Shown one piece after another: positions 10,404 through 11,596 of a stretch of DNA of 56,239 nt. The stretch's first letter is position 1. Each line of letters begins with the position of its first letter. Made by a program: the position numbers and the translations under genes. Source of the DNA: Acidimicrobiia bacterium. GTDB taxonomy: Bacteria; Actinomycetota; Acidimicrobiia; Acidimicrobiales; Aldehydirespiratoraceae. The notes below the pieces were generated by a model. It did not search any database. It was not told where the DNA came from and saw only the letters and a program-made list of their open reading frames with translations. The stretch lies in NCBI GenBank assembly GCA_021296315.1, contig JAGWAO010000024.1:12605-68843 (forward strand). Reading direction: 5' to 3'.

Positions 10404-11438
10404 TCAGGGCCGGAGACGGATGCGGCCTGAGCCTTCGGTGGCCTCGCCGATGATGGCGGCCTCGTGTCCGGACAGTCTCAGTTCGGTGACCGCGGCCAGG
10501 CCGGCGTCGTGGCTGACCATCCCGAGCAGCAGGCCGCCCGAGGTCTGAGCATCGGCCAGCAGGGTCACGGACATCTCGCCGGCGTCGCCGGTGTCGAGAT
10601 GGGGCGACACCCAGTCGAGATTGCGCTGGGTGCCGCCGGGAACCATGCCCAGCGTGGCCAGCTCGCGGGTGCCCTCGACGACCGGCACCTCGCCGACCGA
10701 GATCTCCAGGTCGACACCCGACTCCTGGGCCATGCGCAGGCCGTGGCCCAGCAGGCCGAACCCGGTCACGTCGGTGGCCGCGGTGGCACCGTGACGATGC
10801 GCGGCCGCCGCCGCCTTCGCGTTGGACCGGACCATCTCGTTCACGGCTCGATCCACCACCTCGGCGCGGGCTTCACCCCGCTTTATGGCGGTCGAGATCA
10901 CGCCTGAGCCCAGCGGCTTGGTCAGCACCAGCGCGTTCCCGGGGCGCAGCCCCGCGTTGGTGAGCATGCGCCCCGGGTCGACCTCGCCCACCACGGCCAT
11001 CCCGTACTTCGGTTCGGGATCGTCCACCGTGTGGCCGCCTCCCACCACGAAGCCGCAGGCCCGGGCGGCGTCCTCGCCCCCGGCCAGAACCTCGGCCAGC
11101 AGGTCGTTGGACAGCTCCTCGGAGTTCCACGCCACGAGATTCAACGCCAGCAGCGGCCGACCGCCCATGGCGTACACGTCGGAGACGGCGTTGGTGGCCG
11201 CGATGCGGCCCCAGGTGCGCGCGTCGTCCACCACCGGCGTGATGAAGTCGGCGGTGAGCACCAGGGCTCGCCCGCGGCCGATCCGCCACACCGCGGCGTC
11301 GTCCGCGGTGGCCAAGCCGACAAGCAGCTCCGGCGGGGGATCAGGGGTCAGGCCGCGCACCACGTGCGCTAGATCGCCGGGGGCGATCTTGCAGCCTCAA
11401 CCAGCGCCGTGGCTGAACTCGGTGAGCCTTCTGGCCAT
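10404..11438 (-). CDS. selD: Selenide, water dikinase, a selenoprotein (in-frame UGA = Sec14)
   Basis: Makes selenophosphate from selenide and ATP for selenocysteine and selenouridine synthesis. Without recoding, the frame appears to start only at 11363. Reading upstream through the TGA at 11397-11399 gives ATG 11438 and an N terminus MARRLTEFSHGAG-U-GCKIAP, which aligns exactly with the catalytic G-C/U-G-C-K site of SelD (Cys17/Lys20 in E. coli). So codon 14 is almost certainly selenocysteine. Further signatures are ATADDAAV, DVYAMGG, TDVTGFGLLGH and LADAQTSGGLL. Total length is 344 residues, normal for SelD. GAGGGGG lies about 8 nt before the ATG. SelA, SelB and tRNA-Sec are not in the window. 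Confidence 0.93.
11371..11399 (-). promoter_or_regulatory. UGA codon with candidate SECIS hairpin
   Basis: On the minus strand the TGA (11399-11397) is followed seven bases later by AGATCGCC-CCC-GGCGATCT (11389-11371), a perfect 8-bp stem with a 3-nt loop. It is extendable by TGC/GCG pairs across an A-A mismatch. Position just 3' of UGA is as expected for a bacterial SECIS. The short CCC loop lacks the usual G/U, and the loop is somewhat closer to UGA than in E. coli fdhF, so the SelB contact is uncertain. Confidence 0.6.
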
Positions 11439-11596
11439 CGCGGTCACCCCCTCTCGTGCGCACCGTTGCGGATCCCGCGGGACGCAGTCCCGGCAGGACT
11501 GGAGTCCCCGCAGGATAGGCGCAGCGTTCTGCGGCACCGGCGGACACCCAGTCGCCGAGCGTCTGCTCGGCCTCAGACCGGTGGGAGAGCGGCCGG

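Follow-up and report, generated by a model that had tools for sequence, protein, structure and literature searches.

The SECIS hairpin of Escherichia coli fdhF carries the loop GGUCU. In the model derived for bacterial SECIS elements, a stem of 4-16 bp is closed by a loop of 3-9 nt located 16-37 nt from the UGA, with a G within the first two positions of the loop and an energy of at most -7.5 kcal/mol (PMC13188914). SelD is an established selenoprotein family and, together with one other, the most widespread in bacteria (PMC1794560, PMC13188914), and selenoprotein-bearing Actinobacteria are already known (PMC1794560). A search of the open literature returned no paper pairing 'Acidimicrobi' with selenocysteine and selenoprotein. 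The selD gene described here, located on the minus strand of the window (the whole 56,239-nt stretch of DNA that was analysed), belongs to this known and widely shared kind of gene.

The coding sequence of selD (10404..11438, minus strand) opens with an ATG at 11438, which is preceded by ...GAGAGGGGGTGACCGCG and, at a distance of 8 nt, by the purine run GAGGGGG (11447..11453, minus strand), on inspection similar to a ribosome-binding site. From the ATG the frame reads MARRLTEFSHGAG, a TGA (11399-11397) and GCKIAPGDLAHVVRGL. As originally predicted, the TGA is codon 14 of the frame opened at 11438; read as selenocysteine, it leads to a product of 344 residues with the stop codon at 10406-10404. 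The alignment of this product to SelD, proposed with the original prediction as a check, gave a match of 368.5 bits to the SelD profile TIGR00476 (cut-off 125) over residues 4-308, and the solved SelD structure PDB 3U0O aligns over nearly the full product (E 3e-76). Residue U14 is placed on the catalytic Cys of the 3U0O motif HGAGCGCK, which corresponds to the catalytic Cys in the E. coli enzyme, with K17 aligned as well, so that both the full-length TIGR00476 match and the catalytic Sec/Lys of HGAG(C/U)GCK are present. The closest named relative, with 90%, comes from an Acidimicrobiia metagenome-assembled genome (MAG), and further relatives are found in Acidimicrobiaceae, Acidimicrobiales and other actinobacterial MAGs. 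Because of the TIGR00476 match and the position of U14 on the catalytic Cys of 3U0O, we assign the gene with high confidence to selenide, water dikinase (SelD), with a predicted catalytic selenocysteine inserted at UGA codon 14.

A mechanical ORF caller reports only the frame from GTG 11363 to 10404, which has 319 aa and misses the catalytic loop, in agreement with the earlier statement that this apparent start lacks the catalytic N terminus. Automated annotation would indeed truncate selD, as had been expected, since ordinary ORF calling yields just this frame. Gene callers drop the first 25 residues of selD in these genomes, including the catalytic residue, and the truncated calls mask the use of selenium in a mostly uncultured actinobacterial group. 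Besides selD, three candidate frames with TGA read-through were detected in the window by base composition; none of them showed a motif recognisable by eye.

The source genome is a 2.66 Mb draft metagenome assembly in 83 contigs, with a completeness of 86% and a contamination of 2.6%. It contains selA (369.7 bits) and selB (286.7 bits), both over the cut-off and as full-length frames, adjacent to each other on contig C25. A molybdopterin oxidoreductase gene on C82 (L238) holds a single TGA at locus position 1729, and its read-through product, NNIDSCNRT-U-HAPSVVGLATVFG, has this TGA at the Sec position (NRT-U-HAPSVVGL). The frame matches formate dehydrogenase alpha (fdhA) with 608.6 bits, which is below the curated cut-off of 666, and the first 39 profile positions are missing. 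A hairpin with the loop GGUCU, starting 19 nt after the UGA, follows the fdhA TGA. Taken together, the TGA codons of fdhA and selD therefore indicate at least two selenoprotein genes in this genome. The N-terminal part of fdhA appears to be absent or to lie in another frame.

The search for selA, selB and a tRNA-Sec, likewise proposed with the original prediction, was only partly successful: selA and selB are present, but both copies of the tRNA-Sec gene (selC) lose their 3' half. The two copies (G000 C68:5440-5518, L012/L020, and G000 C27:10826-10904, L011/L019) are identical over 79 nt, have the anticodon loop CUUCAAA (anticodon UCA) and end in the T-loop at GGTTCG|CA[CT]GA. The missing half was not found elsewhere in the draft genome with up to 3 mismatches allowed. 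A further match to tRNA-Sec on C34 (48.5 bits) was rejected as selC, as it represents tRNA-Ser(UGA). A permuted or split tRNA-Sec was also rejected for the lineage, given the ordinary, intact genes of the relatives and the lack of a 3' half in this genome; in the relatives selC is complete wherever no contig end cuts it. The flank of the C68 copy is closest (86-87%) to G009, G007 and G014, the genomes with the selD nearest to that of the window, and the flank of the C27 copy is nearest to G013 (92-94%). Judged from this flank, the C27 copy may be a contaminant that belongs to another species of the genus.

The lesion in selC is either an assembly effect in the draft genome or a real break. If selC had been broken by T-loop recombination in this strain, the UGA would now be a real stop codon and selD a dying gene. 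Both assembly copies stop at the same point with no 3' half to be found, and the DNA directly 3' of selC varies from relative to relative, as noted in favour of such an event. However, selD, selA, selB and the visible part of fdhA are intact frames, and selD, 92% identical to its relatives, is without decay and retains perfect SECIS hairpins. The C27 copy is probably a contaminant, and a break at an identical place in two species within one sample points to an assembly effect; the contigs of G011 also break inside selC. We therefore regard the loss of UGA decoding in this strain as improbable and retain the reading of selD as a selenoprotein gene.

The surroundings of selC show some features of their own. 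A YqeC gene (selenium cofactor biosynthesis, TIGR03172) adjoins it (L019:9901-10635, L020:4516-5412), which suggests that selenium is used in molybdenum hydroxylases too. This upstream side is conserved among the same-genus relatives, whereas the DNA 3' of selC differs in each of them (L136-L148, L245-L253) and includes genes for an ISL3 transposase, AAA, KAP NTPase and macro-domain proteins. The downstream region hence looks like a variable spot. No integrase domain that would mark selC as an integrase target was detected among the scanned ORFs, the tRNA 3' end was not repeated within 5.4 kb of selC in nine relatives, and a scan of viral contigs gave no match to the 5' part of selC.

The in-frame TGA is conserved in the SelD gene of 14 out of 15 same-genus relatives, the remaining one (G011) having no SelD match. 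TGA-containing SelD matches are also common among 296 sampled genomes of the class. In total, the homologues obtained comprised 99 distinct sequences of the TGA type and 71 of the Cys type, and the UGA of selD aligns with the Cys of the latter. By a hand tally, SelB scored above the cut-off in 34/37 genomes with TGA-type SelD compared to 11/24 of the others; of the three TGA-type genomes without such a score, G005 and G014 are 84% and 87% complete, and in G057 the SelB score is just below the cut-off. The original claim that selD is a selenoprotein gene with an in-frame UGA is thus well supported by the SelD match, the location of the TGA on the catalytic Cys, the presence of selA and selB, the second selenoprotein gene and the retention of the TGA in relatives. 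The suggestion that the lineage decodes selenocysteine is likewise supported, but the supposed rarity of this trait does not hold, as a Sec-type SelD is frequently found throughout the class. In one locus from an uncultured Acidimicrobiia MAG (L124, match from 5001), a Cys-type SelD (TGC) retains the Sec-type peptide ELAHVLRHL next to a decayed hairpin 2, which looks like a Sec-to-Cys conversion.

Two hairpins follow the UGA on the minus strand. Hairpin 1 (11371..11389, +8 to +26 after the UGA), which had been described in the original prediction as a perfect 8-bp hairpin 7 nt after the UGA, is present in exactly this form (AGATCGCC-CCC-GGCGATCT) and is conserved among relatives. Hairpin 2 (11355..11369, +28 to +42), which is missing from the original prediction, has the sequence GCGCAC-GUG-GUGCGC, and its apical loop is the GTG (11361..11363) chosen as start by the gene caller. 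In the window sequence alone, neither stem stands out from chance, with P about 0.07 for each; recoding the same peptide with synonymous codons yields a perfect stem as long as that of hairpin 1 in about 7% of cases. The reality of the predicted hairpins hence rests on their conservation across relatives. For this comparison the DNA after the Sec/Cys codon was taken from 185 SelD genes, deduplicated to the 99 TGA-type and 71 Cys-type sequences and aligned without gaps.

Mean pairing was 89% in the Sec genes and 64% in the Cys genes for hairpin 1, and 92% and 44%, respectively, for hairpin 2 (n=99, 71). Synonymous recoding of the Sec genes gave null values of 72.5% (sd 1.1) for hairpin 1 and 68.4% (sd 1.4) for hairpin 2, figures that are approximate, as the codon frequencies of selD in the window were applied to all sequences. 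Since pairing in the Sec genes lies above this null, selection acts on the RNA beyond the encoded protein. In the Cys genes, pairing of hairpin 1 was at the null and that of hairpin 2 slightly above it (44% vs 36%). When one arm was slid by 1-3 nt, pairing fell to 19-68% for hairpin 2 and to 22-38% for hairpin 1. Compensatory double changes in hairpin 2 were seen in 42 cells, compared with 1 to 20 in the slid registers, and its pairs occur as GC, CG and UA at +30/+40 and as GC and AU at +28/+42, every less frequent pair type being present at several loci that belong to different genomes. Within the loop of hairpin 2, all 99 Sec genes have an invariant G at +34 and U at +35. The two-hairpin pattern was also found in individual Sec-type SelD genes from a few Gemmatimonadetes and one Anaeromyxobacter.

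These data also bear on the start of the protein. Translation from GTG 11363, the longest ordinary ORF, would give a SelD-like protein of 319 residues that lacks the catalytic loop, and would leave the upstream frame untranslated. We consider this very unlikely, as the 13 upstream codons and HGAG-U-GCK are conserved as amino acids in the TGA-type relatives, the same residues occur in the Cys homologues, and the GTG itself forms the loop of a conserved hairpin with an invariant GU. A sequencing error in a Cys codon, conceivable in a draft metagenome assembly of 83 contigs, can be practically dismissed, since independent genomes of the genus and class carry TGA at the same codon and the hairpins are present in TGA-type genes and mostly absent from Cys-type genes.

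For the selenoprotein reading, it had been proposed that the 8-bp hairpin is the SECIS, with an atypical loop for recognition by SelB. This proposal has to be corrected. The CCC loop of hairpin 1 lacks the required G and would belong to a spacer hairpin, and hairpin 2 further downstream fits better, with the expected G in its loop, which is thus not atypical. An Rfam scan at the site gave no SECIS match at the gathering score and returned chance matches only, with E up to 10. Based on the loop G and its agreement with the bacterial SECIS model, hairpin 2 (11369-11355) is likely the SelB-binding SECIS hairpin. As hairpin 1 is also Sec-specific and selected, the element looks bipartite. We tentatively propose that such a bipartite SECIS is shared by the Sec-type selD genes of Acidimicrobiia and some other bacteria: hairpin 1 might fold the first 26 nt as a spacer and allow the SelB-binding hairpin 2 to work at normal efficiency at 33 nt, with both hairpins under Sec-dependent selection. 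This proposal is possible, though still rather doubtful.

In the corresponding mechanism, SelB carrying Sec-tRNA-Sec would bind hairpin 2 via the GU of its loop, and hairpin 1 (11389-11371) would take up the long spacer and thereby bring hairpin 2 near the ribosome. The SelB-bound Sec-tRNA-Sec could then decode the UGA upon its arrival in the A site. The resulting SelD would make selenophosphate for the charging of tRNA-Sec, which would serve its own synthesis as well as that of formate dehydrogenase. The conserved two-hairpin layout bears on the distance from the UGA at which a bacterial SECIS can act, and on the structures that may lie in between.

Compared with the bacterial SECIS model, hairpin 2 agrees in all respects, with a stem of 6 bp, a GUG loop, a distance of 33 nt from the UGA, which is close to the upper end of the usual range, and an energy of -9.5 kcal/mol. 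Hairpin 1, in contrast, departs from the model, as its CCC loop contains no G and is located 15 nt from the UGA; a separate 8-bp hairpin filling the spacer is what sets selD apart from the model. The fdhA gene of this genome shares its GGUCU loop with the SECIS of E. coli fdhF. Relative to this fdhA/fdhF type, the hairpin loop of selD lies ~15 nt further downstream and reads CGUGG, or GUG if the C-G pair closes. With the Sec-type SelD (SPS2-like) genes of other bacteria, selD shares the N-terminal catalytic Sec, the in-frame UGA and a predicted SECIS just downstream, and it differs from them in sequence and in the two-hairpin detail only.
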